From Spisula solida (taxonomy: Eukaryota; Mollusca; Bivalvia; Venerida; Mactridae), in assembly GCA_947247005.1 (NCBI GenBank), contig OX365946.1:5650453-5714452 (forward strand): a DNA stretch of 64,000 nucleotides, written 5' to 3'. The translations under genes and the position numbers were made by a program. Positions within the stretch are counted from its first letter, which is position 1. Each line of letters opens with the position of its first letter. Positions 10,140 to 47,051 of the stretch are shown here, piece by piece. Under the pieces are notes generated by a model that saw only the letters and a list, made by a program, of their open reading frames with translations, made no database searches and had not been told where the DNA came from.

Positions 10140-10149
10140 CAAGGTTCGG
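10140..10149 (+). repeat. target-site duplication, left copy (CAAGGTTCGG)
   Basis: This decamer directly abuts the left inverted arm. It is repeated in the same orientation at 32113-32122, directly abutting the right arm, as expected for duplicated target DNA. Confidence 0.75.
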
Positions 10150-12690
10150 ATGTTCGTGAAGTTGGCAGGCTAGCGGCCTAGCGGCCTAACAGCGTGAAGT
10201 TGGCGGCCTTGCGGCCTAGCAGCGTGAAGTTGGCGGCCTAGCAGCCTAGCGGCCTAGCAGCGTGAAGTTGGCGGCCTAGCGGCCTAGCAGCGTGAAGTTG
10301 GCGGCCTAGCAGCCTAGCGGCCTAGCAGCGTGAAGTTGGCGGCCTAGCAGCCTAGCGGCCTAGCAGCGTGAAGTTGGCGGCCTAGCAGCCTAGCGGCCTA
10401 GCAGCGTGAAGTTGGCGGCCTAGCGGCCTAGCAGCCTAGCGAGCGGCCCAGCGATTCAGCGGCCTAACAAAGTTGGCAGTCGAAAAAAAAATTGTGAAGT
10501 TGGCGGCCAAGCGGCCTAGCGCCCAGCGGCCAAGCGGCCCACCGGCCTAGCGGCCTAGCGATCCAGCGGCCTAATAAAGTTGGCAGTCGAAAAAAAAAAA
10601 AATTGTGAAGTTGGCGGCCTAGCGGCCTAGCGGCCTAGCGGCCCTGCGGCCCAGCGGCCTAGCGATCCAGCGGCCTAACAAAGTTGGCAGGCGAAAAAAA
10701 AATGAATAAAAAATAATTGTGAAGTTGGCGGCCTAGCGGCCCAGCGGCCCAGCGGCATAGCGGCCTAGCGATCCAGCGGCCTAACAAAGTTGGCAGTCGA
10801 AAAAAAAAAAAAATTGTGAAGTTGGCGGCCTAGCGGCCTAGCGGCCCAGCGGCCCAGCGGCCTAGCAGCCTAGCGATCCAGCGGCCTAACAAAGTTGGCA
10901 GTCGAAAAAAAAAATTGTGAAGTTGGCGGCCTAGCGGCCTAGCGGCCTAGCGGCCTAGCAGCCTAGCGATCCAGCGGCCTAACAAAGTTGGCAGTCGAAA
11001 AAAAAATTTGTGAAGTTGGCGGCCTAGCGGCCTAGCGGCCTAGCGGCCTAGCGGCCTAGCGGCCAAGCGGCCCAGCGGCCCAGCGGCCCAGCGGCCCAGC
11101 CGCCCAGCGGCCCAGCGGCCTAGCGGCCTAGCGATCCAGCGGCCTAACAAAGTTGGCAGTCGAAAAAAAAATAAAAAAAAATTGTGAAGTTGGCGGCCTA
11201 GCGGCCTAGCGGCCCAGCGGCCCAGCGGCCCAGCGGCCCAGCGGCCCAGCGGCCCAGCGGCCCAGCGGCCCAGCGGCCCAGCGGCCCAGCGGCCCAACCG
11301 CCCAGCGGCCCAGCGGCCTAGCGGCCTAGCGATCCAGCGGCCTAACAAAGTTGGCAGTCGAAAAAAAAATAAAAAAAAATTGTGAAGTTGGCGGCCTAGC
11401 GGCCTAGCGGCCTAGCGGCCCAGCGGCCTAGCGGCCTAGCGGCCTAGCGATCCAGCGGCCTAACAAAGTTGGCAGTCGAAAAAAAAAATGTGAAGTTGGC
11501 GGCCTAGCGGCCCAGCGGCCTAGCAGCCTAGCGATCCAGCGGCCTAACAAAGTTGGCAGTCGAAAAAAAAAATTGTGAAGTTGGCGGCCTAGCGGCCTAG
11601 CGGCCTAGCGGCCCAGCGGCCTAGCGATCCAGCGGCCTAACAAAGTTGGCAGTCGAAAAAAAATAAAAAAAATTGTGAAGTTGGCGGCCTAGCGGCCTAG
11701 CGGCCAAGCGGCCCAGCGGCCCAGCGGCCCAGCGGCCCAGCGGCCCAGCTGCCCAGCCGCCCAGCGGCCCAGCGGCCTAGCGGCCTAGCGATCCAGCGGC
11801 CTAACAAAGTTGGCAGTCGAAAAAAAAATAAAAAAAAATTGTGAAGTTGGCGGCCTAGCGGCCTAGCGGCCTAGCGGCCTAGCGGCCTAGCGGCCTAGCG
11901 GCCCAGCGGCCTAGCGGCCTAGCGATCCAGCGGCCTAACAAAGTTGGCAGTCGAAAAAAAAAATGTGAAGTTGGCGGCCTAGCGGCCCAGCGGCCTAGCA
12001 GCCTAGCGATCCAGCGGCCTAACAAAGTTGGCAGTCGAAAAAAAAAATTGTGAAGTTGGCGGCCTAGCGGCCTAGCGGCCTAGCGGCCCAGCGGGCCAGC
12101 GGCCCAGCTGCCCAGCCGCCCAGCGGCCCAGCGGCCTAGCGGCCTAGCGATCCAGCGGCCTAACAAAGTTGGCAGTCGAAAAAAAAATAAAAAAAAATTG
12201 TGAAGTTGGCGGCCTAGCGGCCTAGCGGCCCAGCGGCCTAGCGGCCTAGCGATCCAGCGGCCTAACAAAGTTGGCAGTCGCAAAAAAAAATGTGAAGTTG
12301 GCGGCCTAGCGGCCCAGCGGCCTAGCAGCCTAGCGATCCAGCGGCCTAACAAAGTTGGCAGTCGAAACAAAAAATTGTGAAGTTGGCGGCCTAGCGGCCT
12401 AGCGGCCTAGTGGCCCAGCGGCCCAGCGGCCTAGCGGCCTAGCGATCCAGCGGCCTAACAAAGTTGGCAGTCGAAAAAAAAATAAAAAAATTGTGAAGTT
12501 GGCGGCCTAGCGGCCTAGCGGCCCAGCGGCCTAGCGGCCTAGCGATCCAGCGGCCTAACAAAGTTGGCAGTCGAAAAAAAAATGTGAAGTTGGCGGCCTA
12601 GCGGCCTACCGGCCCAGCGGCCTAGCGGCCTAGCGATCCAGCGGCCTAACGAAGTTGGCAGCCGAAAAAAATAATATTTGGCAGCCGAAA
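10150..12690 (+). repeat. left arm: GGCCTAGC 8-bp tandem array with A-tract spacers
   Basis: The base unit is GGCCTAGC with variants GGCCCAGC and GGCCAAGC. The outermost part has short blocks of about 30-40 bp separated by AGCGTGAAGTTGGC. Further in, blocks are separated by CGATCCAGCGGCC-TAACAAAGTTGGCAGTCG, then 8-12 A residues and TTGTGAAGTTGGC. Three repeats make 24 bases, so all frames give an eight-residue pattern such as GRWAAGPL; the ORFs found here are artefacts of this. Confidence 0.9.
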
Positions 12691-12706
12691 AATCACATGT
12701 CGGTCC

Positions 12707-12850
12707 TCCACTCCAAGTCGACTTACACTAACCTGAGGTAGCCTCAAGTGTAGCTAGAGTGACGGTCCAGTTAGTCTAGGTCGAGTGGAGATTTGGTAAT
12801 CACATGGGTAACTCGTCCTCGACTTTCCTGAGTGGGTGACCGTTATAATA
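12707..12850. repeat. small palindromic element rich in GTCGA/GAGTC
   Basis: CTCCACTC at the left is answered by GTCGAGTGGAG near 12790, with several inverted short motifs between. It resembles the element at 14097-14245 in style but not in sequence. Confidence 0.45.
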
Positions 12851-13580
12851 AATGGTAGGATATTACACTGTACATACAATCTGTGCTTTATTATTGAATT
12901 GGTCGGTATGATTATTGCAAAGATTATAGTGGATCAGTTAACATAAAACTTCGATGTAATTAACATTGAATGAACGTAAAAATGTATATAATGATTTACA
13001 TTGATATATTCCAACAAAACAATTATGCAAGGCAATGCCTACGCATTTTAAATAAATGAAGGATGCGCATATCGAAGAAGACAAATCGTACCGTATGCCT
13101 TATGTTTTCGCCGTGGACTCAATATTAAATATCATATCACGTCAATATGAATTCTACCGACCGTCAAGCAGGTAATGTCATGTTAATAATTTAGAAGTCA
13201 GAGGAAATGGACTCAGTTTACTTTTATAAGCTGCTTCACTGTCAGATGATTTTGTTAATTACAACACATACATCGTACATACCGTTCCGGGGAAGCCCGA
13301 CAACTAGAAAGCTATAATTCCTGGAATGTCATTTAATGTGCGTCATGTTTAAAAATAATAGTACATAAGATAGCTGATGCATGAACTTCTTGGTTTTAGG
13401 TTGATTATGAAACAAGTTGGTACAACCTTGAACAAATATTAACCATTCCCGACACATCATGCCCGAATTTATCCATCGTCACAATATATAATACAATACG
13501 TAAGAGAAGAGAAGCCACCTTTCGCTTAGTATGCTGGACATCTTGCAAGGGAAATACTGATACCATTTCGTTTTTAGCAT

Positions 13581-13653
13581 GAAGTGACCCCGGATCGAAC
13601 CTGGGCGTCCCGCACTCGAAGCGGACGCTCTAACAGTAGGCTATCGAGGCGGC
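13581..13653 (-). repeat. tRNA-like sequence (decayed tRNA or SINE head)
   Basis: Read on the minus strand it has an A box (TAGCCTACTGTTAGAGC), a good anticodon stem-loop (TCCGC-TTCGAGT-GCGGG, anticodon CGA) and a B box (GGTTCGATCC). The T loop is one base short and the acceptor arm does not pair, so a working tRNA-Ser(CGA) is unlikely. Confidence 0.6.
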
Positions 13654-14819
13654 ACATTGACACATGAATGATTGCAATGCACATCATCAGTATTTGCACG
13701 TTTTTATTCATTCAAATATTTTAGTCATCTTCATATCAACACTGGGTGGGATTAAAAATAATAATATGGCAAAGAATGAAAACAATAACGTTATAATTTC
13801 ATAGTTATGCTCCATATATAAATACCATATTTATGGTTGTATATTTATCAACCCACACGATCATATGAATTTGTTGTGTAGTTTAATTTGAAACTACAAT
13901 AACTTTATTAGTTCAACATTCGTGCGCTAAATCGGTATGCACGTAACCACACATTTGAGTGTAGCTGGGGAACTTTGCCAAGAAATTCACATTATCCATG
14001 CTTTCTAAGGATTTTCTTCTATCCGGGACATTTCTAAAAGGTAAAATCATATCCTTAAATTCTTCTACCTCGAATGGATTGTCCATTTTAGTTAGTGACT
14101 AACTTTGGTATTCACTAACATTCCATTGAGTTTGGTTGGAGTCACGCTGAAGTCGACGTTTCGCTCCCTCGAAAATTCCTCACCCAGTCGAGTCAACTCC
14201 AGCTGCACTTACCGTTGTGAATACCAATTTCAGGTTAGGTCGAGTTCACACTCAAACGCACGAACGAAACAACAATTAAATTTGGATTAACTCAGTGAGT
14301 GAGAGTGGAGGAGAGGATAAATAAAGTTCCGTTTTGTTCTGTGAAAATTCTAATACATATGCGATGTTGAATTTCTCCGTATAGATTCGGAGGCAATAAC
14401 TGTAAAATTAGACTGTATTTCAGTCTCATCCATGTCTAATTATTACAAAATAACACTTATTATATCACAAATAAAACATGCATATAACCATTCGATATAG
14501 AATTAATTATAAGAGACTCAACTTATGTACAATCACATATATTTACACATTGCAACCAATGAGCATCCAATGTAAAAATTATTTGAGGACACTACCGAAC
14601 GACATAAAATATTTGAGGACACTCATGAATACGACCGTTTATAAGAAAGAGTTAATGAAAAACAATAGTTTCACAATTAAATGATCTTATTTTACTAACC
14701 ATGAAATTTCCAAAATATGTATAACATATTAATAAAACAATAAACCTTTCTTTTTCGAAACACTTTCAATGTCTATGATCGTACGTTACTATGATTATAC
14801 GGTTTGGTGTTAATCTTCG
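13654..14819. repeat. AT-rich stretch with a small inverted-repeat element at 14109-14229
   Basis: TTGGTATTCAC at 14109 is answered by GTGAATACCAA at 14218; between them lie GTCGA-rich inverted motifs. Nothing else recognisable is present; the ORFs at 14105 and 14478 show no family features. Confidence 0.4.
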
Positions 14820-15465
14820 TCACAAATATTGACAAAAAAATCACGGCCGTGAAATACCACAATTTTCTAATCATTGTCATTTTATTAATATTTGCGTAAT
14901 TGATAATTCTCAATATTGTTACATATTTAGAAACTAAAGAGCTTCATAACGATATAAAACAATAGAAATGGAGTGAATTATAAAAAAACTGGTACGGCCG
15001 TGGAATTCGAACACATTAAAAATATAATTTCACGCCGAGAAAAATGTGTATATATTCAATTAGCCGTTATTTTATTTCAATATGTTTGTATATTTTAAAA
15101 CAAGAGAGCTTCTTTTTTATTTTGATATAATTTATATGAAAATATGTTAATAAATAAAAAAATAAACTACTACAGCCGTGGAATTCGAACACAAAAATGT
15201 GTAGATTTTTTTCTCGAAAATAGTCTGTGTTTGACCATTATAATTCATATTTGCATGGGCATAATTTCAATTTTTTATATTTAGAAACTTCAGAGCGTAA
15301 TTTTTAATTTCATATCAACATTTTAAAATTCGTCAATAAATTAAAAAATTACCCCCCCCATCCACGCCGTAGAATCACTCCTGTGTTATTGTCTAAAATA
15401 GCATAGGGCCGAGAAATACACTATTCCGCTAACGTCACCTGTCAATCAAAATGTGGTGGTCATTT
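14820..15465. repeat. three degenerate repeats of about 165 bp, ending in a transposon-like terminus
   Basis: Each unit contains ATATTTAGAAACT(A/T)-AGAGC and then a GCCGTGGAATTCGAACAC block (third unit CGCCGTAGAATCAC). The stretch ends with ACCTGTCAATCAAAA, whose reverse complement occurs just inside the left end of the TA-flanked element at 33652. It may be a decayed relative of that element. Confidence 0.5.
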
Positions 15466-16792
15466 ATAATGGGTCATTCGTATCAATTGACCAGACGCCG
15501 ACTCCACCCACTTAATCTCGTTGATCCAATCAGAGCGTGTTATCGCTAGACCGCTACACGTGTTTTAGATTCCGATGTAAACCTTGGACAACATAACGAA
15601 GTCGAGATATAGGTTATAGAGGAAACATTGGTTTTGAAATCACTGCTACGCCTATAACTCTTTAGTTTGTGTATATATCTAATCGACAGTGGTTTCACGC
15701 GAAAGGTCTATTTTTGCAGTATAAGAAGGCACCAAAAAATTTGAAGATACAAGAGATATTAATATTTTATCACGTTTTAAATAAACCATTTTATTAGGCA
15801 TTTTTGATCTACAAAACATGGTAACACATATAACTTTTTTGTCAGTGACTATGTTTGAATTAACAGGTCTGTTTCTAAAGAATAAAACACACCAAACATG
15901 TTTGACAATCATTACATATTAACATTTATAGCGGTTTTAAAACCCGAGAAAATTCACAACAAGGTATATATATAGACAATTTTGCATTCGGGAAGTATAT
16001 TTCGACTTTTATCATCTGAAAGTCATTTTAATGCATCGTCCACAAAAAGCCGAAGCATTTAATGTTTATTTCTTCAAACGAACTTTTATTTTAGAATTTG
16101 GCAAAGTTAAAAAACAACAATTAAAACGCATTTATTGTGAAACAATCGACCTAAAATAAATTGGCATGAAATGAATAACTTTCACTTCGGCTAAATAAAA
16201 CATATGTGTGGTTCAGGAAACATTGGTGAACTATAGGATATGTAGGTAGGCATTTGTTTTTAGATGTAGGTGTTTGACATACATCAGTGGTCACGATTCA
16301 CCGGGAAAATAGTTCTATAGCCATAGCACTTTGCATATGCATTCACTGTATAAATTGGTATCGTTGACTGTACTTAAAGTATGTACCTACAGTATCTCCG
16401 ACTGACAATGAACATGTCTACATGTATTTGATAGAGAAAATAAATAAATATGTTTTTACAGAAAATAAAAACGTCAGTCTATTATAACATGATAGATGTA
16501 CATTTCATACAGAATCGCCTACCATAATAAAATTTAGCAATAAATACCAGAGACTGTAGTCGTAAATACACAGTTTCTGCCGGAAAGAAATCTACAGCAC
16601 ACGGCTATAATTATGGTCATAAAATAGATTAAAAAAAATAGCAGACTTAGTTGAGAAATTACTCGTAGACAAATTTTTGCATTTTTCTCCAACAAATTTT
16701 ATTGGAAAGTTTGTTGTGAAAGGACTGGAATGTAAGCCAAAACACTCCTTAAGATTTTCTTAAGCGAGTTTGTTAGTTTGTTATGCTACGGT
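15466..16792. other. no gene seen
   Basis: AT-rich interior of the giant element. The minus ORF at 15679-15912 has no recognisable features. I see no tandem or inverted repeat of note. Confidence 0.4.
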
Positions 16793-17350
16793 CACAAAGC
16801 TCGTACGATATCCGTACGAATTTACCAACTCGAACGAGTCCACATTGTTTGAAATCCTAACGGTACTTTTTCATTCGTAGGGTCTGGTCACAGCTCGTAC
16901 GGACCTCGTACGATTTAAAGAGATGCAATCGTACGATATCCGTACGGACATCGTAATATCCATACGGACACCGTACGGGGCTCGCAAGGAGCCCGGCCGT
17001 ACATCGCACGGTGCTCGTAGATCAATCAGAGCTCGTAGATAACTCGTACGGTGTCCGTACGGTGATCGCACGATGGCCGTACGGTGTCCGTGCGACAATA
17101 ATGGATATATTCAGCGAATTTTAATTATCTATTTTAAGACCCTGGTCACATTGATCGTACGAGCTCCGTGCGAGTCAAATTTTAGCAAGTTCGTACGGAG
17201 TCCGTACGGACATCGTAAACTCGTCAGGGCATCGTACGGATTGTTGTAACTCGTAGAGGACTCGGGAGCTCGGTGAAAATGTTTCACCGATCTCCGAGTT
17301 GTCTACGAGCTCGTAGAGATATTTGAAGTAGAAAGCTCGCAAGGAAGCTG
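16793..17350. repeat. CGTACG-palindrome cluster 1
   Basis: It starts with TGCTACGGTCACA and is packed with 8-mers of the form TCGTACGA, CCGTACGG and TCGCACGA. Two further internal starts (TCTGGTCACAGCTCG, CCCTGGTCACATTG) suggest nested or tandem copies. Near the end is a hairpin with a centre of CTCGGTGAAAATG and TTTCACCGA flanked by CTCGTAGAG and CTACGAG. The minus ORFs here merely read the palindromes. Confidence 0.75.
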
Positions 17351-17689
17351 TCCTCACCCAGTTTATGTATTATTATATTATGTAAGATGATTTTGGATTA
17401 GTTGATATTTCATGTCATGTTTATATATGTAAGAAAAAATGCATAATTGTCCCTCGACAGACTCTGAAATTCAGCCTATTTCGCCATAACGTTTTGAATA
17501 GTACAAAGGGTACACGTATGTGTCTCATGTGTACCACACCAAATATATATTTTTACCAAAAGAATTAAGTGAATGCATTAGAAATAGGATATACATATAT
17601 GTAGATGCATAGACAATGGTTTGATGTGTACTAATAAGTTTTGTGCACGAGAATCACGGAAATAACAACTACATTTGTATCATACACTG

Positions 17690-18050
17690 AGCGTGTGCGG
17701 ATCCAGATGGGGTGGGCCTGGACCCTGGAATTGTGGTGAATTGTGGTCATGTAATACAATGAGAGGAGTACGTCTTGGGTGGGAGTCTACTGGGTACCAA
17801 CTTGGATAAAATATTGCTGGTCGGACCCCTCTCTAGCAAAATAACCCGAATCCATTCTCATACATGTATTGCCAGGTGCCTGGCAGAGTTGGGCCTACCG
17901 GCGTCTTACCAAACGACTACATCAGTTATAACCTAACTTTCTCCGGGGTTTGAACTTTCGATCTCCCGCTTCCTATACGGACGCCAAAAAATCACCCAGC
18001 CACGGTCGCGGTAATATGTCATGGATCAAAGTCTGGTGCGTCCCTACTTG
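17690..18050 (-). repeat. SINE-like sequence with tRNA-related head at 17942-18010
   Basis: The minus strand reads an A-box-like TGGCTGGGTGATTTTTTGGCG and B-box-like AGTTCAAACCCCGG, then a GC-richer body of about 250 bases. A similar phrase, ACTTGGA...TTG(C/T)TGGTCGG, occurs at 17800-17825 and again at 18039-18069, so the right boundary may be a duplication. Confidence 0.45.
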
Positions 18051-18059
18051 GAGAAAGGT

Positions 18060-18760
18060 TGTTGGTCGGATATATCGATGATGCTAATACGAGAATACGA
18101 TGATGATAATACGAGAATACGATAGTTTGATGATGATGATAGTAGAATACGATAATGATAATACAATAATAGGATGATGATAATACGAGAATACGATAGT
18201 ATGATGACGATAATACGAGAATACGATAATACGATAATGATAATACAACGATAAGATAATTATAATACGATAATACGATGATGATTATACAATAATAAGA
18301 TAATTATAATACGAGAATACGATAATGATAATACAATGATAAGATAATGATAATACAATGATAAGATAATGATAATACGAGAATACGATAATGATAATAC
18401 AATGATAAGATAATTTACAATAAGAGAATACGATGATGATTATACAATGATAAGATAATGATAATACGAGAATACGATAATGATAATACAATGATAAGAT
18501 AATGATAATACGAGAAAACGATAATGATGATACAATGATAAGATAATTTATAATACGAGAATACGATGATGATTATACAATAATAAGATAATGATAATAC
18601 GAGAACACGATGATGATAATGCGATAGAACGATGCTGATAATTACGAGAAAACGATAATGATAATACGATAGCTCGATGATGATATTACGAGAATGCGAT
18701 TATGATGACGATAATGATAATATGAGAATACCATAATAATGATATAAAAATACGACATTG
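18060..18760. repeat. GATAAT/AATACGA microsatellite-like array
   Basis: Irregular repeats of GATGAT, GATAAT and AATACGAGAATACG fill about 700 bases. The ORF on the minus strand (18285-18491) is only this repeat translated. Confidence 0.9.
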
Positions 18761-18787
18761 TTTTCCTGAATTAATCAGTGTTGTGTT

Positions 18788-19430
18788 TTTGCTGTTGGCA
18801 GAGTCTATCTACCGGAACTTGGATACATGATACAGTTGCAGTATCAAACTAATAGCAGTGAATGTTATAGTGTGTACAACAATGTCATAGTGTGTACAAC
18901 AATGTCATGCGTTATTACATGTACATTCGAAATAAAGATATTAAAAGTCTGTGTACAAATGTTGTTATACTCGCACAGTCTGTCTGTCTTCCAAAATTTT
19001 AATTTTTCAATATTTCAATATACACCATACTCATAACTATTCATTGTCATAAGTAAAGCAGTTGAGATAATGTTCATTATCTACATCTTAATGGCGTCCC
19101 ATGCGATGCAAATCCTTGCAAATTTCCATATCCGTAAGGATATCGTACGATACTCGCATGAGTATTTCGTAGCTCGTGTGGTGTCCGCACGAGCCTCGTG
19201 CGAGAGTATACAGACTTGAAAAATATCAACGGGCTCGTAGACAGCTCGGGAGCTCGGTGAAACATTTTCACCGAGTCACCGAGTCCTCTACGAGTCACGA
19301 AAATCCGTACGATGCTCGTACGATTTTCGATATCCGTACGGGCTCCGTACGGACGCCGTGCGAGTTCGCCAAAATCAACTCGTACGGAGCTCGTAAGGAG
19401 CTCGTAGGGCAAATGTGACCGTAGCATTAC
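18788..19430 (-). repeat. CGTACG-palindrome element, inverted copy (cluster 2)
   Basis: Read on the minus strand it starts TGCTACGGTCACATTTGCCC, has the CGTACG-rich arms and central hairpin (CTCGGTGAA...TTTCACCGAG), then GGCGTCCCATGCGATGC-like unique sequence reaching CTCTGCCAACAGCAAAAA. The same order of sequence is found on the plus strand at 27628-28205, so the two form an inverted pair 8.2 kb apart. A 20-bp piece is tandemly doubled at 18866-18906 (TAGTGTGTACAACAATGTCA). Confidence 0.8.
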
Positions 19431-21578
19431 CTGGTAAAACCCTTTAAAGATGTTAAAAATTATATTTACGTAGTTTTTCATTTACATAGCACAGGTCACT
19501 CGGTCCAAATGAAATTGTTGCACAGTTTTTGTAAAATATTTATGTACACTAGTCAGATGCACCATTATGCAATTATGCATCCTGGTAAGCATACTTAATA
19601 ATACAATATTTGAGAAAACCGCTGTTAAATACAACCTGCAAACAAAAACCACTATATAACAATATATTCAAAAAAATTATGTCATCTTCTCATCAGACCA
19701 TTTTCAATGATATTAACCTGTACCTCTTGAGAGGGACATACCTTTCATTAACTATCACTATTTGCAGTTTCCAAATGGATGGTCTTTATAGGCAAATACT
19801 AGTATTGGACTATATAATTATATTTAATCAAGATCTCGAAGGTTTTTGTTACAAAAAAACCGATAGTCACAATTTAGTATGAATATATTGGCATACATTT
19901 TGTACCATGCATGTTTATGTAAAAGAATAATAAACAAGACAAGACATTTGATTAGGCTGGGATTAAAACAGTAGATGGAAACTTGTTTTTTCATAATGCC
20001 GTGTGTGACTGTTGCATATATGGTGGATACATATCCAGATTTATTTATTTATTTTTATGGCGATTCCCGATCCTGATCACAACCATGGACATGGCACACC
20101 CCAAGCAGTCAATATAACAGTTAGGCCAATCCAAGTGACTCGGAAGTCTGAAGATACTCAGATTCACATTCTACACCGTCAACTTAAATCTTGATTTGGC
20201 AATATTTTTAGTTTCGTCAGAGAACTGTCTCTGTTTTCGGCTATTTCTGAATGGGTAATTGTTGAACTACATAATGGAAGATCATTTAGTTATTTTGCCA
20301 ATATCTGTGGCAAAGTAAATCCCTTGTATGCCTTGCCATTATTGGCAGGCTGATTGTGTGAATTTGTACTCGAAGTTATCGCTTGATTGTGGGTTTACAT
20401 ATACTGTATAAAGTAGATCTATAAGTTTCTTGAAGTTAAAAACTCGAAAATTCATATACATGTAATGTGAACGTAAGTCAGTAGGTTTTGAATTAATATG
20501 AACTAAGGCACAGCCTATTTTAGCGAATTGTATCTTAACTATTAAAGAACAGCTTAGCTATATCATTTACACTAGGCAAGTTGATTTAACCTAGAAGTTA
20601 TTAAAATCCCAATTCAACTTATTATGAAGTCATTACTTTCTGATCCGACTCCACATGTACTGTACGATAGTAAGTTGTTGAGGTTCAAAAACGCCAGAAA
20701 AAGTAACATGATCATCCAGGACAGAATGATTGCTGATCATACATGTATGATTCATAAATGTACAGTCAGTAGAAAATGTGTGACATTTTGGGTACGAAGT
20801 AACGAAGGACGATACAGTACGAGTACGAACCTGCTTTCATTTTTAAGTTCATTGTTCTGTATAACTACGTTGATTATGTCTATAAAAATACGACTTTCCT
20901 TGTTTAAAACAAGTACTTTCATGGTGTAATCAGTTGATCAGTAACTGGCAAGCTGTCACGTCCAGTGGTTTCTCTTCCAAGCGTTCCTATTCCAAGATGG
21001 CGGTCGATCAAAGTGCTATACTAAGCAACTGAGCATTTATCTCCCTTATTTTAAAATGTGTTCTAGATAGGCCTACTCGAGTTTTTGGAATATTTTTAAA
21101 CATCATTAAAATATAAAAGAAAATTTATGAGCTACAGAATAACGCATTTTAGGGAACTTTTGTTATTCTATTGGCGGCCATTTTTCATTATCTTTCTGTA
21201 ACTGCGAAACTATAACACAAATTTTCAGATCCATTAGTGAATTCAAACTCTGACCAAACCACGTGACCCGTTGACTTAAACGCGCCAGAAAATTCGCTTT
21301 TACACGCGGTATGCTGTCTAATAACCTGTCACTGCACGCAATACATGATTTGAATATAGTTAAATGTTTAACAGCATCCGATAAAGATGCGGAACAGAAA
21401 GAAATCTGCATCATTTTTGGAGAGATTGAAATAAAACACATCATATTAAATAATAAATTATTTTCAATATACTAAAGTGCGTTCAAATGAGAACAGTTAT
21501 AAATATAAACTCGCCCGAAAGGTAAACTTTATAAGGGTTCGATATCAAATAGTGTGCAAATCTCATTCCATATACGAA
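19431..21578. other. no gene seen
   Basis: AT-rich stretch with several short ORFs (20624-20929 +, 21163-21444 -) that show no recognised domain. I cannot exclude fragments of old transposons. No strong repeat found. Confidence 0.35.
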
Positions 21579-21664
21579 AGGCGCGTTAGTGTAGTGGATA
21601 AACCCTCACGTCCTTCAAGTTTCTATTTTATTCTGAGTTGTAGGTTCGATCCCCACTTCGGTCA
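21579..21664 (+). repeat. tRNA-like sequence, pair 4 left
   Basis: A box TTAGTGTAGTGGATAAA and B box GGTTCGATCCCC with about 45 bases between, then CTTTTT soon after, a potential pol III stop. The insert is longer than a normal tRNA anticodon arm and arms pair poorly, so it is tRNA-derived. Confidence 0.6.
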
Positions 21665-21965
21665 ACCTTTTTATTGCATGTATCCATGTTATAAAGTCTT
21701 ATATTATACTGCTGTTTTAATGAATCGATACTTCAAAGTGATCAAAGTTTCACGTTGTAGTGAATATATTAAAACGATTGTATGAGTGTTGTACTGTATA
21801 TAAGAATAAAACAATTGAAATACGACTTGATAAAGAATGAAAATATAACACAAACATTAATCTACGTACTGCATACCTTACTCGTGTATGTTTTTGTTTT
21901 AGTTACAAATAAAAAATAAGGTACTTGTAAAAAGATAAAACAACACTTTAAAATTTAATTAACTT

Positions 21966-22052
21966 GGATGGGTGACGAACCAGTGGTAAGATTGAACAAA
22001 ATAACTTGAATAATAGCGGCATACTTACCCACTCGACTAACGAGACGACGTG
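21966..22052 (-). repeat. tRNA-like sequence, pair 4 right
   Basis: The minus strand reads A box TTAGTCGAGTGGGTAAG and a decayed B box GGTTCGTCACCC. It converges on the tRNA-like sequence at 21579-21664 across about 300 bases of AT-rich DNA. Confidence 0.5.
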
Positions 22053-23794
22053 AAAACACGTTTTGAAGTATTATACTATTGGTTGAAGGTATCTAGTTTA
22101 TTATATAAAACATAAGCCTCCCATATTCTTTTGAATGGGACAGTTCCCTCATTAGTATTACTTATTGAACCGACAGTAGTATTGTTATGACGTTTTTATT
22201 ACAGACATGTTATATTTATTATGCAGAATCAATCGAGGATGAAGGATGATTTTCCCCGACTATTCCCCAGCACACGCTCCCTAGTATATTAATTAGCCGG
22301 TCGTTTCTACTCATCCGAATAACACACATTGATTAGTACATTTCAAAAACTAATGGCAGGAAAAAATATTGCGTAGTCCCAACACTACAGGTAAGTGTTT
22401 GACTAGAACAATAGAGTTTCAGTATAGTTTTACTTCGGCTAGTAAGCTTGTGGTTATCGTAAAACATTTTAGCGAGATTGTGTCTTCCGTGCTCTGCTTA
22501 CCTTTATGTCCGATTTGTTATTCCTTTTATATAAATTATAGCTCGCCGGAGATAATTCTAGCCTTATCAATAAACAAACATGCATAATACAAACTCTGCA
22601 CGTTCGAATGACCGCTTGTTATCAGTGAAGATTGAAAGAGTACTAAAGAAGTGATTATACACAAGATAGAACAAAGAATAGACGTTGAAAATGCATATAA
22701 TTTTCATATTTATTTGTAAACAAATGCTAGTGCTATCATCGGCGTTCGATAGTGTGTGCCATTTAAGACCTGTATCAGTGTGAATCAATTGACGTGTTCC
22801 TCCACTTTAAGCATGAATATATTACAAGGTCACTGTGCGGAATATATCCGCTACCGTCATTATGTGAGTGTACATGTAGTGAATAAACTTTAAAATGTTG
22901 CCTTAACAGAATATATAAGTATACTCCCCTATTTATTTCTACAGTGTATTGTCTACGTGTACAATCACACAATGACATATCCTTGCATTGTCGGGAAATC
23001 TGGAGTTCCCTGTGCTATCGTGTGACACGGTAAACAAATAAATTGCGTCCGCCACATCTTTTTACCTGTAGAAAGTACACAAATAATGGGTATTCAAAAG
23101 CACAAAACTAATATTTACGAAGTCATACCTAAATCATTCCAATCATCCCTAATATTGCAGTAGCAATATGATTAATATAGTATTAAACTGAAATACATGT
23201 ATGTATAATCAATAATAATAATGTTTAGGCTCTTTGTTTCGAGATATTTTGGATGTCCACATGTTATAAAATGAGAGAACAGTTAATTCCTAATTCAAAT
23301 TATGGCTTTCTTCAAGATGTTGGAAATATTTATGAATTAAAAAACGTGTTTAGAGTCTTTAGATGTACTGGTATATTGTTACTAAGTATACATTTAATGT
23401 AACTAATTATATAATAAAAACATACACTGTTGATATTTTATAACCTGCTAAGTGATTAAAGTATGCTATTGATATGCATGTATGAGAACATTCGGGCAAC
23501 TTTTAGATCTTAGTTTTAGCTGAATGCATTTGTGATAACTATGTACAATGCAACCTCTCCAGAGACTCTGAGCAGCCCTCCACTGAGCAACAACCTCTCT
23601 TCAGCAACATAAACATGTTGTTCGAGAAGAGACAATCTCTACATACAACACCATAATGTTATGTTTCCCAATGTGTGTCGCTATAGAGAGCTTTTATTGT
23701 TTTCAAAGTGCACATTTTCTCTTAGAATATGATTTATCTAAGAATTGCACTTTAGGGTATGCATTTTGAAAAAGTACATAATTTTTATATGTTT
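22053..23794. other. no gene seen; short hairpin at 23602-23640
   Basis: The only structure noted is CTCTCTTC...AACAT-aaac-ATGTT...GAAGAGA. ORFs in this stretch are short and featureless. Confidence 0.35.
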
Positions 23795-24190
23795 ACGAGC
23801 GTCGTACGACGGTCGTGCGATTGTCGTACGAAGGTCGTGCGATTGTCTCACGGCAGTCGTAGGATAGGGGATGTTCACAAGACTGTCGTGCGACAATCGC
23901 ACAATCATCGCACGTCCATCGTACGTCCATCGCACGATAGTGGTATGATTCTAAGTGCCTAGAGTGACCTTATAATCTCAAACAAATCGTGCGTCCATCG
24001 TGCGTCCATCGCACGTCCGTCGTAGAATTTTTTAACATGTCCAAAACTCTACAACGAGGGTCTACGATTATGTTTTCCGTCGCACGACGGTCGCACGATG
24101 CAGAAATTACTCAAGTCCGTCGTGCGACGGACGCACGATAGTCCTCAAATTTACACCGTAGACCCGTCGCAGGTCCGTCGCACGACAATC
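23795..24190. repeat. CGTGCGA/CGTACGA-palindrome cluster 3
   Basis: It holds dozens of motifs of the form GTCGTGCGA, GTCGTACGA, TCGCACGA and GTCCATCG at roughly 10-20 base spacing, in two blocks divided by AGTGACCTTATAATC. It differs from clusters 1, 2 and 4 in favouring CGTGCG over CGTACG and lacks their central hairpin. Overlapping ORFs on both strands are repeat artefacts. Confidence 0.75.
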
Positions 24191-26499
24191 GTGAAAGGGG
24201 TTTTACAAAATGCGATACGGGCATCGGATATTTATGTATAAGCATCCAAATAACTATGTACATTTCATGGAATGAGTCGGGTTTAATTACAGAAACCATA
24301 TTTGGAACAGGTGGTCACCGTGGATGGGGAACATTTTTAAAAGCTCACTGTGGAATCCTGCACATGAATAAAAAAGTGTGAAAACTAAAATACGAACTTA
24401 TAACACACAGTAACATTGACATGTTTATCTTATTACTTGAGTAGATAAGTGACTTAATATTATTCATGTTTTAAATCAACGATACAAAAATGTTATATTG
24501 AGGACTTTGGTTAAACTGTTTGGAATAGAGAAGTTAAATTCATAAACTAGATCTATATGAGTAGTTTATTATTTTTTATTTATCTTCAAACTATTAGATA
24601 TATTTATTTTTATTTGTATCTAGTTCTAGTGTGTACAAATGTTATATCTATTAATTTATGTCAAATAACTCTTAAATAATAAAATCGCCAAATTTATTGA
24701 CATATAGGGAAAATAGCTGTTATACACTCAAACTAGATAGAAACAAGAAATAAATTAATATATCTTAATATTCCAATTTAAAACAAACATAAATGATAAT
24801 ATGACACATATTGTCTAGTGTACATACAGTACTTAGCACCCTATTAATTTTCAGTAGCCGGGACCAGTTTCTGTGTTTTATGACCCTAGATAAACACTGA
24901 TAGTGATCTCCTGCTGATAGCCAGAAATATAGAAGGACCATTATAGGTCATCGTGCCTCAGATCTGCCAATCTACTAGGAACGCGGATTAACCAGCTTTA
25001 TCAGCCAATCAAATCTTGATAGTGTTGGTGGAACTGACCAACCTGGCAATGTTCATCCTCATTCATCAGTGGTTAGTCAAGTTCCCAGACTCGAAGAATA
25101 CTCTGGTGAACGAGAATGGACAATGTTATGTAACCCACAAAATAAAACCGACTGCAGCTGTTGACCCCTATATGACCCATTCATGAAAATGTTCAGTGAC
25201 GAGCACGTGGTAGTTGGTTATAGTATTATTATCGTCGCAGGATTCTTTTTTGTAGTGATTTATGAATGATCTCGAGCGTTTTACACACTAATATTTACTC
25301 GTAAACGTCTGATCACGTGGTAATGTTTTGGTTGATGACGCCTTTGTGATATCTATGGATCAATTTTAATACGGAAATCATGCATTAGTTGACATTAGGC
25401 CTTTTCGACTGGGCTGTGTCGTGGAGCAGGTTACAGTCTGTTCCCGTTCTAATTTTACAGTTGCATTACTATAGTAGTGCTGTGATTGTGGGGATGGGAA
25501 CCAGGCTAAAGCTTGTGTAATGCCGTAAACGAAGGGCGTTGATACAGTGTGTGAAATTGAACTCATTTTTCCAATGCGTCGATGAGCTCTGATTACTCAA
25601 CTCTCTGAGAACTTCAATCTCTTGTTGTAATGTGAACATCCGGTTTGTTGTTTAAACAACAGTGTTATGTCTGTTGTTTTGGGAATTAGCTCGTATGTAA
25701 CAACCCGTTGGTCCGTGCGTTGTGTGTGAGCTGTCAGTTTAGCTCTGCCAACGTAGTAAGTCCAGTGCGTTTTTCCAGTACAATTTCAAATATGATAACA
25801 AAGTCTCAACTAAATAAGTTATGAGAAATCCACCGTCAGTTTTTCTATTTTTATTTTCGTCGTTTCTCCAAATATTTTAACAATAACAAATATGTTTTAT
25901 TTTCTTAACACACAGAGTTAGTAACTTAACTAAGCGTAGTGGAACTCCACTTTTCCTAACTTTTTAAAACCTACATCATGACTGTTTTCGTCCTAATTCA
26001 TCCCTTTTTTTATTAAAAAATCTTACTTAATATACATTATTTTCAAATCATAGAAAATAAATCTTAAAAGCTTTTGACCAATCAAATTACACATTACAAA
26101 ATACTTAAAACGTTCTTAGCCAATCAAATTGCATGTTATATACTTTGTTAGCCAATTAAAACGTGGCTACAACATTATTGCATAATTACTAAAAAACAAA
26201 GGGTTTACCAATATTGAACCTATTATATCATTACCTTGACTTTAATGTATGATAAAAATCTATTAAGATGCTATCGCGTGTATCCTGTCTCCAGTGGACA
26301 TTTCAGTGACAATTATTTAGACTATCATAGTCGTTTTACAACCTAACAGCCCCTGGGTATTAAAATACTTTGAATGTTCTTTTCAGAAAAGCGTTGCTAA
26401 AATAGTTAGATTATGTTGACAATTTAAAACAAATGATGTGGTCAAATATTACCGCATAAAACTTGCTTCACGAAACAGCCCAGTCGAAAAGGCCTTTTG
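24191..26499. other. no gene seen; 34-bp inverted pair at 25397-25430 and 26464-26497
   Basis: ACAGCCCAGTCGAAAAGGCC (minus at 25397, plus at 26478), with a few more matching bases outward, occurs as an inverted pair about 1.05 kb apart. The plus copy runs straight into a LINE 3' tail, so the shared segment could be LINE 3' UTR present twice. Otherwise AT-rich DNA without recognisable coding sequence. Confidence 0.4.
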
Positions 26500-26612
26500 T
26501 TACTATTATCTTCTGTTATTACTGTACATAATTTGTAAATGTGTTAATGAGGCTCACAGGGAAGAATGGATTGCCTCTTTAAATAAAGTCTTTATTATTA
26601 TTATTATTTTTA
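26500..26612 (+). mobile_element. solitary LINE 3' tail with (ATT)n
   Basis: ATCTTCTGTTAT, GAGGCTCACA, GGAAG, TTGCCTC and TTTAAATAAAGTCTT then (ATT)n match, in order, the 3' end of the L1-like element at 43890-44025. It is a heavily 5'-truncated insert or a SINE that borrowed this tail. Confidence 0.7.
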
Positions 26613-27627
26613 TAGTTGAAATGAAACTAGATGAACAAGAATGTATTCTTAATCGCAGAGAATGACAAGTTATTGTAACACGTCCAAGTTTGTTAATTTT
26701 CTGACGCAAAGTATCTTTCAAAGGACATTTGCAATGTATAATTTAAATATTTTTACCCCAAAAACCTCAGCATCATAGTGTAAAATAGGGCCTACTAGGT
26801 AATTATATACAAGTCAAACAGTTTCCTGTGGGTTATAATTTAGTTGTATCGTTTAGAATGTGGTTTTTGCAGTTTGGATGCAATTCGAATTTATTCCGGT
26901 GTAAGTTTAAATTAATGTTTCTGTCATAATTGTTCCAATACATGTAATATCGGACAATACCGATTAATCTAACAACAAATGCCATGATGAGATATAAATC
27001 GTATTCAGTTTAAATTTCGGAATAATGGTTTCTTTGGTAAATAAACTATTGTAATGCGATAAAGACCGATGTTATCCGCATGGAATAATGAAATTAGTCT
27101 GGTTCACGACATTCTTACAAAGTGCTTCTTTTTTGGATATTGTTTTTGAAATCGTAAACCACCGAGAACATGTCACGTGCCCCTCCATGGTCATTTTACT
27201 TTTGACAATCCAATATAACCTGTTTTTGTTAAATCTCATTTTAAGATCTTTGATAACATGTAAGGCTTTTTAAGGACTGATAATTACCAGTATCTCAGCC
27301 TGGAAATATATGTTGCTTATGTTTTAACAGTGTTTTATGTTTCACAAGTTTGAAGAATATTTTCTGTCATATAATTTAAACAATTGTTCAGTATACGTAT
27401 ATCATAATGCCAAAATCTCAGGGTGGCTTTCATTGTAATAAAACTAATAATGCATTAGCCACTGAGATTGTATATACCAGATCCTGCAGTATTATGTGAT
27501 TTGGCAATAAAGGATAGCTGATAAGCTCAACCCATGTTCCCTAGCATAATGTTGAATATCTATATAGATACTCATTGAAACTTGATAGATATGAATCATT
27601 TATAATATACAGTGATATTTTCCTACT
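26613..27627. other. no gene seen
   Basis: AT-rich DNA between two repeats, without recognisable exon, RNA gene or tandem array. Confidence 0.35.
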
Positions 27628-28205
27628 TATGCTACGGTCACATTTGCCCTACGAGCTCCTTACGAGCTCAGTACGAGTTGATTTTGGCGAACTCGTACGG
27701 CGTCCGTACGGAGCTCGTATGGATATCGAAACTCATACGAGCACCGCACGGATTTTTGTGACTCGTAGAGGACTCGGTGAAACCGATCTCCCGAGTTGTC
27801 TACGAGCTCGTAGATATTTTTCAAGTCTGTATTATCTCTCACGAGGCCCGTGAGGACACCGCACGAGCTACGAAATACTCGTGCGAGTACCGTACGATAT
27901 CCGTACGGATATGGAAATCTGCAAGGTTTTGCATCGCATGGGACGCCATTAGGATGTAGATAGTGAACATTATCTTAACTGCTAAACTTATTACAACGAA
28001 TTGTTATGAGTATGGTGTATATTGCATTATTGAAAACAATTTTGTTTTGAAGATTGAGAGACTGAGCGAGCATAACAACATTTGTACACAAAATTGTTAT
28101 ATCTTTATTTCGAATGTACATGTAATATACACTATAACATTTACTGCTATTAAGTATCCAAGTTCCGGTAGACTGAAGACTCTGCCAACAGCAAAAATCA
28201 AAGCG
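27628..28205 (+). repeat. CGTACG-palindrome element, direct copy (cluster 4)
   Basis: It starts TGCTACGGTCACATTTGCCC and runs through CGTACG-rich arms (27640-27930) around a central hairpin (CTCGTAGAG...CTACGAG). About 270 bases of unique sequence follow, ending CTCTGCCAACAGCAAAAA. It is the inverted counterpart of 18788-19430. Its ORFs are palindrome artefacts. Confidence 0.8.
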
Positions 28206-30109
28206 CTGAAGGCACTAAATTTGTTTGGGTTTGAATAATGAAAATGTAAAAAATCTTCAGTCCTCAATAACATGGCAATTCTCTTTTGTAACGTGCCGGA
28301 CTGATAGACACTGGAAAAATCCCGTCAGTGAATAATAATAATAATGTCTAAAAACGAATCAGTTTTAAGTTTTGAATGGGGAATCTAAATTAAAGTTTTA
28401 AAATTGCCTATGTTTAGTGTTTTTTGAGCATTTGGGACTAAATATCTTAATTCAGTTGTTATCCAAGCGCTTTCAGACAAAGTCGGAGGGAGTGTAGTGA
28501 TTCTGGGATTCCGGTCTGTGTACAGTACAGCTGGGTACAGGTTTTATCAAGTCTGAAATGCCATGTTATTCGGTGAGTTGAGTGGTGGCTCTCTTCTAGT
28601 TTGGCTGTTGGACAGTGCGGTTGTGTGTGAAAGCGCAGAATAGGCAATAGACAGTTATTAGAGACTGATAGACTAGTGTAGAGTATGTTTTCTTCACACG
28701 TGACACAATCGGTTCAATGCAATATTCATGAATCTCTGACCATTAGAGGGTGTTATTGCAAACTTTAACAAGAGCCATGTTCACATGGCCAACCCAGCAT
28801 AAATCGATTACATAAGGTGACCAAAGTAGTACAAATCTGATTCTAAAAGTGCACGAAATTACACGAGTTCATAGTGAGATATATTCAAATTTAAGGGTAA
28901 GACAAATGAAAATTGAATGAAAAAATAAATTATTTTTCAATATTTTTTTAATCCATGGTATTTTCTGATTATGATGCATTACAAATTTATTTCAGTTCAA
29001 AAGCTTAAACTGCAGGAAATTGCATGATTATTATAGTTGACTACTGACACTTGCATGATTTAAAAAAGGAAGAAATATTGCCAGGGGTTTCTGTTTCGGG
29101 ACCTAGTCGCTGCGGCAAGACATACTAGTACGATGTGCACCAGACTGACATAGCAATTTCGTTCAGGATTCTATTTACGATGCAACTTTTATCCGGTGAC
29201 GGCTAAATTAACAATTCTTAAATCCAAAATCGGGAAATCGTACTTATGCATCAGTTGATTTGAATGACAACCACCAACCCCTGTGAAGGGCGGGGGATGG
29301 CGGGTGAAATTGTCGCATGTGTTAACATTTCCGACGCACCCGCACTGCCGTGCAAGTGCGGGACTTTTGTTTCGCGCAAAAATAGCGGGGAAATATAGCC
29401 GTGACTCTACCCGTGAGGCGGGGCAATTGCGGGGATTTTGCTATCTGTCAGACCCTGGGGGCACGGATTTTACCAGGGGTTTGAAAAGACAAACGTAAAA
29501 ATATCCGTCCTTCCCCGGCGTTCGGGCTGTGGTTTCAATTGACTGTTGCATTACACCATACAGCTTGCTGCCAGTTAGCAACCACCAATTAGATCTTTGA
29601 AAAACTGCATTAAAATACAGGATGTATATATATGAAGATACCAATACTATGGAGGTAGATCTACAACCTCTCAAATTTCATTGCATTAAAACCCTCTACA
29701 ACCGGGTTACCCTACATACAATGTTGTTTTAATTCATATCATATCAAGTTGCTTTCAAAAACTAGAAGAGAAGTGTGTGATAAATTTCGTAGAGAAACAT
29801 ATCTATTGAAGTCTACATGGAGTCATTACATGACGGGCACCTATGGTAAATTGGGCTCTTGATTAGTCCTTACGAATTTTATGTTCAGTCTATTTAGATA
29901 TTAGTGTCATGGTTTAAATCTAGCACAGTCAAATGAAAGCATAGTGCTAGTACATCTAAGCTACTTGTCTTCAGACTTTTAAGGAATTTTTTGCAAATAA
30001 CAGTTCGACTATAACCAAACAATTATCACTGAACCTCACATAAATGTACACTTGTCGTATTAAACAGTGTCTTGATTCCACATGTATTACAAGGTCACGA
30101 TGGACGACA
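28206..30109. other. no gene seen; GC-rich patch at 29270-29520
   Basis: The patch (GGCGGGGGATGGCGGG, GTGAGGCGGGGCAATTG) stands out from the AT-rich surroundings and may be part of an unrecognised element. A short AAT microsatellite lies near 28330. No credible ORF. Confidence 0.35.
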
Positions 30110-30300
30110 AATATAGAATAGAATATAATTTATTTGCATATTCAGTCCTGAAAAGGACTTTTTACAAAGCAACATTAATACAATTACATAAATAGCATGG
30201 TGATATATGACGGGAAAGTATGCGATATGATATTATACCAAATTAGAAAAAAACTTTTATATATGTAACCGAGGTTTATATGTATGAGACGAATTTAGGC
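30110..30300 (-). mobile_element. possible LINE 3'-end remnant
   Basis: On the minus strand the sequence reads AAAAAGTCCTTTTCAGGACT, then GAATATGCAAATAAATTATA and TTCTATTCTAT, a typical ending of non-LTR elements. There is no coding part left. Weak call. Confidence 0.35.
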
Positions 30301-30571
30301 CCGGATTCGGGAGAGACGGTCTTTTTTTTAGAAAATTTATAGTTTATGTACTGATATTATATGTTAAGCACAACCGCTGTTATTATCCGAGAGATTGTAC
30401 ATTACATACAATATAATTGTAAAAAGAAACATAGTTTATGAAATACAAATGTGTTTCCATTATAAAGTTTACCTTGTCGAAACGAAATACAAGGCATACT
30501 TAATGTTGTAAGGTTACATTTATAAATGATTTAAATAACATATTTGAAATAAAAATGCAATACATGATTGT

Positions 30572-32112
30572 GCTAGGCCGCTAGGCCGCTAGGCCGCCAA
30601 CTTCACAATTTTTTTATTTTTTTTTTTCGACTGCGAACTTTGTTAGGCCGCTGGATCGCTAGGCCGCTAGGCCGTTGGGCCGCTAGGCCGCTAGGCCGCC
30701 AACTTCACAATTGTTGTTTTTTTTTTTTCCGACTGCCAACTTTGTTAGGCCGCTGGATCGCTAGGCCGCTAGGCCGCTAGGCCGCTAGGCCGCTAGGCCG
30801 CTAGGCCGCTGGGCCGCTGGGCCGCTAGGCCCCTATGCCGCTTGGCCGCTAGGCCGCCAACTTCACAATTTTTTTTTTCGACTGCCAACTTTGTTAGGCC
30901 GCTGGATCGCTAGGCCGCTAGGCCGCTGGGCCGTTGGGCCGTTGGGCCGCTAGGCCGCTAGGCCGCCAACTTCACAATTTTTTATTTTTCGACTGCCAAC
31001 TTTGTTAGGCCGCTGGATCGCTGGGCCGCTCGCTAGGCTGCTAGGCCGCCAACTTCACAATTGTTATTTTTTTTTTCGACTGCCAACTTTGTTAGGCCGC
31101 TGGATCGCTAGGCCGCTAGGCCGCTGGGCCGCTGGGCCGCTGGGCCGCTAGGCCGCTAGGCCGCTAGGCCGCCAACTTCACAATTTTTTTTTTCGACTGC
31201 CAACTTTGTTAGGCCGCTGGATCGCTAGGCCGCTAGGCCGCTGGGCCGTTGGGCCGTTGGGCCGCTAGGCCGCTAGGCCGCCAACTTCACAATTTTTTAT
31301 TTTTCGACTGCCAACTTTGTTAGGCCGCTGGATCGCTGGGCCGCTCGCTAGGCTGCTAGGCCGCCAACTTCACAATTGTTATTTTTTTTTTCGACTGCCA
31401 ACTTTGTTAGGCCGCTGGATCGCTAGGCCGCTAGGCCGCTGGGCCGCTGGGCCGCTAGGCCGCTAGGCCGCTAGGCCGCCAACTTCACAATTTTTTTTTT
31501 TTTTCGACTGCCAACTTTGTTAGGCCGCTGGATCGCTAGGCCGTTAGGCCGCTGGGCCGCTGGGCCGCTGGGCCGCTGGGCCGCTAGGCCGCTAGGCCGC
31601 CAACTTCACAATTATTTTTTTTTTTTTCGACTGCCAACTTTGTTAGGCCGCTGGATCGCTGGGCCGCTGGGCCGCTAGGCCGCTAGGCCGCCAACTTCAC
31701 AATTTTTTTTTTTTTTCGACTGCCAACTTTGTTAGGCCGCTGGATCGCTAGGCCCCTATGCCGCTAGGCCGCTAGGCCGCCAACTTCACAATTATTTTTT
31801 TTTTTTTTTCGACTGCCAACTTTGTTAGGCCGCTGGATCGCTGGGCCGCTCGCTAGGCTGCTAGGCCGCTAGGCCACCAACTTCACGCTGCTAGGCCGCT
31901 AGGCTGCTAGGCCGCCAACTTCACGCTGCTAGGCCGCTAGGCTGCTAGGCCGCCAACTTCACGCTGCTATGCCGCTAGGCCGCCAACTTCAAGCTGCCAG
32001 GCCGCTAGGCTGCTAGGCCGCCAACTTCACGCTGCTAGGCCGCTAGGCCGCTAGGCCGCCAACTTCACGCTGTTAGGCCGCTAGGCCGCTAGCCTGCCAA
32101 TTTCACGAACAT
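30572..32112 (-). repeat. right arm: inverted GGCCTAGC tandem array with T-tract spacers
   Basis: The same 8-bp unit and spacers as 10150-12690 but on the other strand (GCTAGGCC, TTTTTTTTCGACTGCCAAC, GATCGCTAGGCC). The outer end, 31850-32112, has the A-tract-free short blocks, as in the left arm, so both arms have the same outside-to-inside order. A segment of about 306 bp is doubled inside the arm (near 30920 and 31226). Confidence 0.9.
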
Positions 32113-32122
32113 CAAGGTTCGG
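32113..32122 (+). repeat. target-site duplication, right copy (CAAGGTTCGG)
   Basis: It directly follows the outer end CACGAACAT of the right arm and is identical to the decamer before the left arm. Confidence 0.75.
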
Positions 32123-40060: not shown

Positions 40061-40565
40061 AGATATGTAAACATTATCATGCCTAAGGTGCTCTCTTTGA
40101 TCATACATGTAGAATTAATCATTGTCTTATATGTAACAATATTTATGCATATGGTGCCAACTTTAAAAATTCATGTAACATTTACCTATTGCTAATAACC
40201 AAATACTTCTTGCCTCTGCATGATAAGCAAATATTAACATGTGTAGGTCCCATTCCGGAATATTCACGTAGCCTTTCTCTCATATTTAAACATTGAATAA
40301 ACTAAGTCTCAAATTATAACAAGTTTGGAGCCTCTGCACACTGTGCACAATTGGTATATGAATACGAATATGAGTTTGAATACGAAAGTACTGTTATCTA
40401 CACAATTCTTATTCAATATTTATTTATGGTTTCTTTCTGTCTTTTTCTGTCTTTTTCTCTTCGTAGCAACACACATCCCTATCAATTTTTATGTCAAAAT
40501 ACCAGACAGTTGTTAGGGTGCACGGCTGAATTGGGGGGTCATAAGATGTCAACAAGACTCTCATT

Positions 40566-47000: not shown

Positions 47001-47051
47001 TAAGATATCAGAGCTGGATGTATAGCATGTTAGCAGACGTTTTGTTTTAAA
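44026..47051 (+). other. upstream region of C1q gene 2, with duplicated blocks and a tRNA-like sequence
   Basis: Bases 44416-44530 match 5166-5280 upstream of C1q gene 1. Bases 44800-44935 match 36020-36135. Just before the start codon, GGAAATTTTAC and ACATTCACAGAT are shared with C1q gene 1 at equivalent places, so the proximal promoter/5' UTR is homologous; the TATAAA of gene 1 is not kept. The ORF at 45621-45884 has no recognised feature. Confidence 0.5.
45324..45389 (+). repeat. weak tRNA-like sequence
   Basis: A-box-like TGGCCTACAAGTAAGGCG and B-box-like GGGTCAAATCAC at normal spacing. The B box lacks the usual GGTTC core, so this is a decayed tRNA-derived repeat at best. Confidence 0.35.

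Follow-up and report, generated by a model that had tools for sequence, protein, structure and literature searches.

The 64,000-nucleotide stretch of the Spisula solida genome analyzed here (contig OX365946.1, positions 5,650,453 to 5,714,452; hereafter the window) very probably carries, at positions 10150-32112, a giant foldback DNA transposon that is non-autonomous, belongs to a family of such elements and moved as a unit. Among the 100 matches to its terminal sequence that were listed from the host genome, 14 facing pairs (the window included) delimit units of 19-37 kb that share their tips and their type of arms and whose interiors are homologous. The recurrence of the tips, the target duplications, the shared interiors and the lack of any recognized domain therefore point to giant foldback elements that form a multicopy family and are apparently gene-free. 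An unusually large, non-autonomous foldback element had been proposed in the first-pass annotation of the window, and this proposal is supported by the size range of the family and by the lack of any Pfam domain above cut-off in the interiors scanned. No description of this family was found in the open-licence PMC literature that was searched.

The boundaries of the window copy are defined to the base. The sequence CAAGGTTCGG occurs at exactly two places in the window, in direct orientation and as an exact match (10140-10149 and 32113-32122, both on the plus strand), and both occurrences abut the ends of the element; its expected count is 0.08, and two copies were reached in none of 100 shuffles. 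A 20-base tip, searched with at most three mismatches, is present in the window only at 10150-10169 (plus strand, ATGTTCGTGAAGTTGGCAGG) and at 32093-32112 (minus strand, ATGTTCGTGAAATTGGCAGG in the minus-strand reading), for an expected count of 0.00. Read inward, the left and right ends are identical over their first 60 bases save one A/G change; beyond these, the number and the length of the units differ between the two arms. The first-pass annotation had reported the direct repeat at both edges, had judged it very unlikely by chance and had described outer ends matching over about 50 bases, and all three statements hold.

Inspection of the sequence and Tandem Repeats Finder delimit GGCCTAGC-rich inverted arms, from 10150 to about 12690 on the left and from 30572 to 32112 on the right. 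The two long opposed arrays previously described do exist as inverted arms, but they are not simple GGCCTAGC arrays, each being made of two unit domains. Units were delimited at the motif GTGAARTTGGC, which starts at the seventh base of the tip, after ATGTTC. Each arm comprises an outer domain of 30/38-bp units that covers its outer 220-250 bases (10156-10405 on the plus strand, with units beginning with GTGAAGTTGGC, and 31887-32106 on the minus strand) and an inner domain of units of about 83-198 bp (10406-12690 on the plus strand, with an approximate inner edge and units of 85-198 bp, and 30572-31886 on the minus strand, with units of about 83-158 bp). In an inner-domain unit, a constant core is combined with a run of GCGGCCYA octamers, of variable length, and with an A-tract; the units of the left arm include GTGAAGTTGGC, the octamer runs, GATCCAGCGGCCTAACAAAGTTGGCAGTCG and the A-tract. 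By this motif, the left arm comprises 27 units and the right one 17 (18 with a looser motif), and the arm units repeat a string contained in the tip. These are the long terminal inverted arms of short tandem units expected of a foldback element and, as is also expected, neither their length nor their number of units is constant from one end or copy to another; by a crude measure of motif density, the arms at the family ends fetched are about 0.2-3.9 kb long. Homogenization of the two arms within an element was considered as a general rule and rejected, since the right arm of the same element ranked first for only four of 17 left arms by 15-mer overlap (the 501-bp pair being outside this count) and the mean overlap was 0.546 within elements compared to 0.45 between elements. 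When the first 301 bases of one arm were folded as DNA, the fold was weaker than those of 100 of 100 shuffles (z = +8.7), a result that is uninformative on pairing between left and right arms.

The tip pattern was searched with at most three mismatches in the 932 Mb of the host genome (36 contigs), the reversed pattern being used as a control. This search, which the first-pass annotation had recommended, revealed 1,075 matches (558 forward and 517 reverse) compared to 65 (42 and 23) for the control. Pairing was analyzed on the 100 listed matches, which have no mismatch to the degenerate pattern and are located on contigs C1 to part of C6; copies are named hereafter by contig and position in Mb (e.g. 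C2:57.01). Among these matches, 26 neighbouring pairs are less than 100 kb apart: 18 are facing, six are parallel (five in one orientation and one in the other) and two are outward, three of the five parallel pairs of one orientation lying within a single satellite array. The distances between facing tips are 0.5-1.3 kb (n = 3), 19.2-36.8 kb (n = 14, window included) and 59 kb (n = 1). Two pairs have the same tip spacing of 28,079; they were rejected as identical copies and the equal spacing was taken as a coincidence, because their arm lengths and interior offsets differ.

All 18 facing pairs (both ends of 17 other pairs that were fetched, and the window) were tested for target duplications and none was dropped. 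Eleven of them, nine giants and two small ones, have an exact 9-bp duplication; exact 9-bp duplications border the arms-only copies of 918 and 1,312 bp. The window pair has an exact 10-bp duplication, without a 9-bp match. The 10-bp duplication initially reported is thus correct for the window and does not typify the family, whose usual length is 9 bp and among whose 18 pairs the window is an outlier. The remaining pairs match at 8/9 (once), 7/9 (twice), 6/9 (once) and 1-2 of 9 positions (twice). None of 306 controls with mismatched partners reached 7/9 or more, and a 9-bp match was obtained in 81 of the 178,200 comparisons in which positions were slid within pairs. Therefore, as is expected of foldback elements, target duplications border whole units, and their length lies within the 8-11 bp expected of Mutator elements, which is the range in which the first-pass annotation had suggested looking for direct repeats around paired inverted copies. 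The association of a 9-bp duplication with a minisatellite near an end, expected of Rehavkus/NOF elements, was found as well. The target duplication of Galileo, a member of the P superfamily, is 7 bp long; at this length, the 18 pairs match at 0-5 of 7 positions.

The 200-base flanks of the facing pairs, in an ungapped comparison, include no two that are alike, a result in favour of separate insertions rather than duplicated segments. It is accordingly scarcely credible that the units are segmental duplications, or that they result from assembly errors in which arms were put together around unrelated DNA. Low-complexity, GC-rich arrays such as these arms are difficult to assemble, but the use of PacBio and Hi-C data for the S. 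solida assembly (PMC11101916) speaks against an artefact, as do the 14 giant facing pairs with homologous interiors, nine of them with exact 9-bp repeats and the window with its 10-bp one.

The interior of the window copy (12691-30571, about 17.9 kb) is collinear with that of other copies, mostly at about 94-99% identity. Homology to it was detected at one or both fetched ends of all 13 other facing pairs of 19-37 kb; the 59-kb pair resembles it only weakly, over 84 bases, and matches C2:57.01 at its right end. Four copies besides the window were read end to end (C3:8.3, C6:19.2, C2:57.01 and C2:58.9). C2:57.01 is collinear with the entire window interior (about 94-98%) and has about 4.5 kb of extra sequence before its right arm. 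At least two types of interior exist: type 1 ends on the right like C2:57.01, and type 2 (C3:8.3, C6:19.2, C5:5.6, C1:40.6 and C2:58.9) has a different right end. Both share the left 12.5 kb of the window interior, about 2.8 kb of which are missing from C3:8.3 and C6:19.2. Within type 1, the interior end segments of C2:26.07, C2:55.86, C3:48.7 and C6:20.8 are 99.5-100% identical to C2:57.01 over a few hundred bases to 2.6 kb, and the type 2 copies C3:8.3 and C6:19.2 are mostly 99.2-99.4% identical to each other (97.4% in one segment, and lower where arms or tandem repeats are included); the window copy is more diverged than these near-identical copies. The presence of shared interiors at different places, with unlike flanks and bordering duplications, supports the initial proposal that the whole segment moved as one unit. 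The joints between arm and interior fall at different interior points among copies: the right arm of the window and that of C2:26.07 begin inside sequence that runs on in C2:57.01, and the right joint of C2:26.07 spans CTCCAAACTGCCAACT, which is common to arm and interior. These varied joints look like the result of a repair that joined the arm to a nearer interior point.

The structure of the arms and the recurrence of the interior also bear on the hypothesis of a composite of the Ising type, in which ordinary chromosomal DNA is mobilized jointly by small, complete foldback elements located one on each side of it. Ising transposable elements of Drosophila do move the DNA located between foldback transposons (PMC6431247), and arms-only elements exist in the clam family. 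However, two tips would be expected at each end of such a composite and each window arm has only one at the threshold of three mismatches, the outer one, and therefore neither arm is a complete element. Furthermore, the recurrence of the interior at all of the 13 other giants implies that it is not one chromosomal segment. A composite of this kind is therefore quite improbable, and a remote composite origin, since degenerated, is possible.

The window element has no stop-to-stop open reading frame (ORF) of more than 134 amino acids (aa), and its interior, translated in six frames (twelve half-length frames), gave no Pfam match at an E-value of 0.1. The Pfam matches of the extra right-hand parts of C3:8.3 (type 2) and C2:57.01 (type 1) are all below curated cut-offs, and nothing was found when the window was scanned for Rfam families (at gathering scores) and for tRNAs. 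No DDE transposase of Mutator-like elements (MULEs), no PHD-finger transposase and no THAP-domain transposase was seen in the interiors scanned. The longest ORFs of other copies (382 and 257 aa) are located within nested insertions, and the other ones (136-167 aa) in minisatellite, in sequence absent from the window or in the shared interior; the 156-aa frame of C2:58.9 belongs to the shared interior, and its window equivalent has 111 aa. Since neither a large ORF nor a Pfam domain was found, the element appears, within the reach of these scans, to be non-autonomous; such scans could miss a transposase encoded by many small exons or unlike Pfam models. The C2:58.9 unit owes its extra length (36.8 kb in total) mostly to a nested insertion of about 14 kb (L057 2507 to L058 6600; C2:58.91-58.93 Mb) that has its own, different terminal repeats (GACTGCAGAAATCAGGCCAGACGC) and carries the 257-aa ORF, which has no Pfam match; no Pfam domain was found in its right-hand 6.6 kb (minus-strand frames only), and it is perhaps another large DNA transposon. 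The 382-aa ORF (L049 4148-5293, minus strand) has cysteine-rich knuckles and belongs to an insertion of about 3.6 kb nested within C3:8.3; its Pfam matches, mostly to coiled-coil models, are all below cut-off.

Two origins can be considered for the interior, both compatible with a transposon that moves as a unit: a decayed autonomous ancestor, or a host chromosomal segment captured between the arms, which would make the family a giant Pack-type one. Capture is conceivable but doubtful. The lack of a transposase or any other domain above cut-off in the parts scanned favours it, as does the existence of two types with a common left-hand sequence followed by different right-hand sequences, but no donor locus was seen among the sequences analyzed.

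Several observations weigh against a family of giant units transposed as wholes. For 64 of the 100 listed tips, the list includes no partner with which they would form a facing pair of less than 100 kb (mismatched partners would be unlisted), and four single tips, extended to 9.0-11.5 kb, have no partner tip there. No transposase or autonomous copy was found in the interiors scanned or at the extended single tips, and no empty site was seen. C3:48.7 (2/9) and C2:41.3 (1/9) have no target duplication, and C2:55.86 matches at just 6/9. C2:41.3 is probably not a true pair (its tips are 59 kb apart and its short left arm has a different unit pattern); C3:48.7 is otherwise a typical giant, and its missing duplication is unexplained. 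Some tips have short arms followed by other sequence. The four extended single tips mentioned above have such short arms, and an autonomous element was sought there (7.5 kb of extension each): no partner tip was found, nor any ORF of at least 110 aa save one of 390 aa at one locus. The latter (L059 6330-7499, minus strand) resembles a G protein-coupled receptor by eye and is about 8 kb from the single tip. At C2:55.86, the right target copy is the left 9-mer split by ten bases beginning with ATGTTCG, an interruption that may be the footprint of a second insertion followed by excision.

The family presumably moved in trans. The 9-bp duplication and the structure of the arms make a Mutator-type transposase (MULE; FB/NOF-Rehavkus or Phantom-like) plausible. 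Such a transposase, encoded elsewhere, would bind the tip (ATGTTC followed by GTGAAGTTGGC) and probably also each arm unit at its GTGAAGTTGGC start, the arm being then an array of repeated binding sites. The unit would be excised and then inserted at a 9-bp staggered cut. Repair of the arms with slippage, and joining of an arm to a nearer interior point, could generate shorter forms, down to arms-only ones. It is rather unlikely that the same giant foldback elements depend on a transposase of another superfamily (P/Galileo, KDZ, hAT or an undescribed one) and that their likeness to Mutator elements is convergent. Foldback arms do occur with different transposases, Galileo harbouring a P-element transposase (PMC3169594), and the family itself has yielded no transposase, but 9-bp duplications fit the 8-11 bp reported for Mutator (PMC6446971) better than the shorter ones of Galileo. 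With a transposase encoded elsewhere and acting in trans, we tentatively suggest that the giant gene-free form could itself be a successful cut-and-paste form, the dozens of binding sites in the arms lifting the size limit, and that non-coding units of about 20 kb or more could have spread recently in this way. The element may itself benefit from the retained interior, which could act, for instance, in copying or by being transcribed into a large non-coding RNA.

Very small forms related to the tips were also observed. A 94-bp miniature copy with target repeats matching at 8/9 (L046 and L047) occurs in each half of a direct duplication whose halves lie about 61 kb from each other and are 96% identical over 1.1 kb. 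At two loci (L041 and L044), repeats of about 42 bp are made of the tip, and each unit of L044 has a target-like sequence; these repeats possibly represent a route from transposon end to satellite.

Within the window interior, an AT-rich minisatellite (22/44 bp, 18076-18706) is shared with C3:8.3, C6:19.2 and C2:57.01, and an internal inverted repeat has its arms at 19004-19258 (plus strand) and 27782-28036 (minus strand), which are 90% identical. Outside the element, a 341-bp tandem repeat (8936-10072) ends about 70 bases before the left target duplication, and two satellites (598-1592 and 37825-39660) have units of 145 bp and of 83/104/429 bp. ORFs of 385 and 418 aa (6358-7515 and 47034-48290), which we take to encode proteins with coiled-coil and C1q-like ends, flank the element, as though tandem paralogues surrounded it. 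Other ORFs (40545-43574, 57181-57666 and 58995-59657) look, by eye, like LINE endonuclease and reverse transcriptase.

The size of these elements, their lack of recognized genes, their copy number and the near-identity of some copies are jointly what is new here. Non-autonomous DNA transposons are usually short. According to a review (PMC6431247), DNA transposition drops significantly above 6 kb of cargo. Apparently gene-free units of 19-37 kb, some of them near-identical between chromosomes in the segments compared, are contrary to this size expectation and make it possible to ask, in a natural system, if the size limit is overcome by the repetition of binding sites along the arms. Furthermore, the family is a plausible source of scattered GC-rich satellite arrays in a bivalve genome and of inverted repeats able to cause rearrangements. 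It could be included in repeat libraries, since its pieces would otherwise perhaps be filed as unrelated satellites or unknown repeats.

NOF groups with Rehavkus, close to Mutator-like elements, among the systems to which the clam family can be compared. Like FB and FB-NOF, the former known in Drosophila for its long inverted arms of short tandem units (PMC4079207), the clam elements have long inverted arms of this kind, and like Rehavkus (PMC6446971), they have 9-bp target duplications and a minisatellite near an end. However, clam units reach 19-37 kb without any recognized gene, and no transposase of the NOF/Rehavkus type was seen in the interiors scanned. Tm1, a Mutator/Phantom foldback element of root-knot nematodes, also has composite arms with a variable number of tandem motifs, 9-bp duplications and several classes (transposase-coding, non-autonomous and MITE-like, that is, resembling miniature inverted-repeat transposable elements), but its ends carry asymmetric 7-bp motifs and its reported PCR products measure about 0.9 kb and two-odd kb (PMC3169594), whereas the clam ends are symmetric and the units far larger. 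Tetris of Drosophila virilis is a foldback element with tandem arm units, 8-10-bp duplications, a non-coding interior and arm repeats that gave rise to satellites (PMC4079207); the clam family resembles it by its tandem-unit arms, the length of its target duplications, its apparently non-coding interior and the tip-made repeats of two loci, but Tetris arms reach 1,735 bp, with units of about 220 bp, and just three structurally complete copies were reported in the same work. Galileo shares with the clam family long, internally repetitive inverted arms, which in its case hold additional transposase-binding sites (cited in PMC4079207), and differs from it by the length of its target duplication. 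As in Ising elements (PMC6431247), very large DNA segments lie between foldback sequences; unlike these foldback transposons located around chromosomal DNA, the clam arms have one tip each, at the outer end, and enclose an interior that is itself a repeat family. Finally, Pack-MULEs carry non-transposase DNA between Mutator-type ends and are moved in trans, as proposed here for the clam elements, but those reported by Jiang et al. include none above a full-length element of 7 kb, according to the review mentioned above (PMC6431247), compared to 19-37 kb for the family described in this work.

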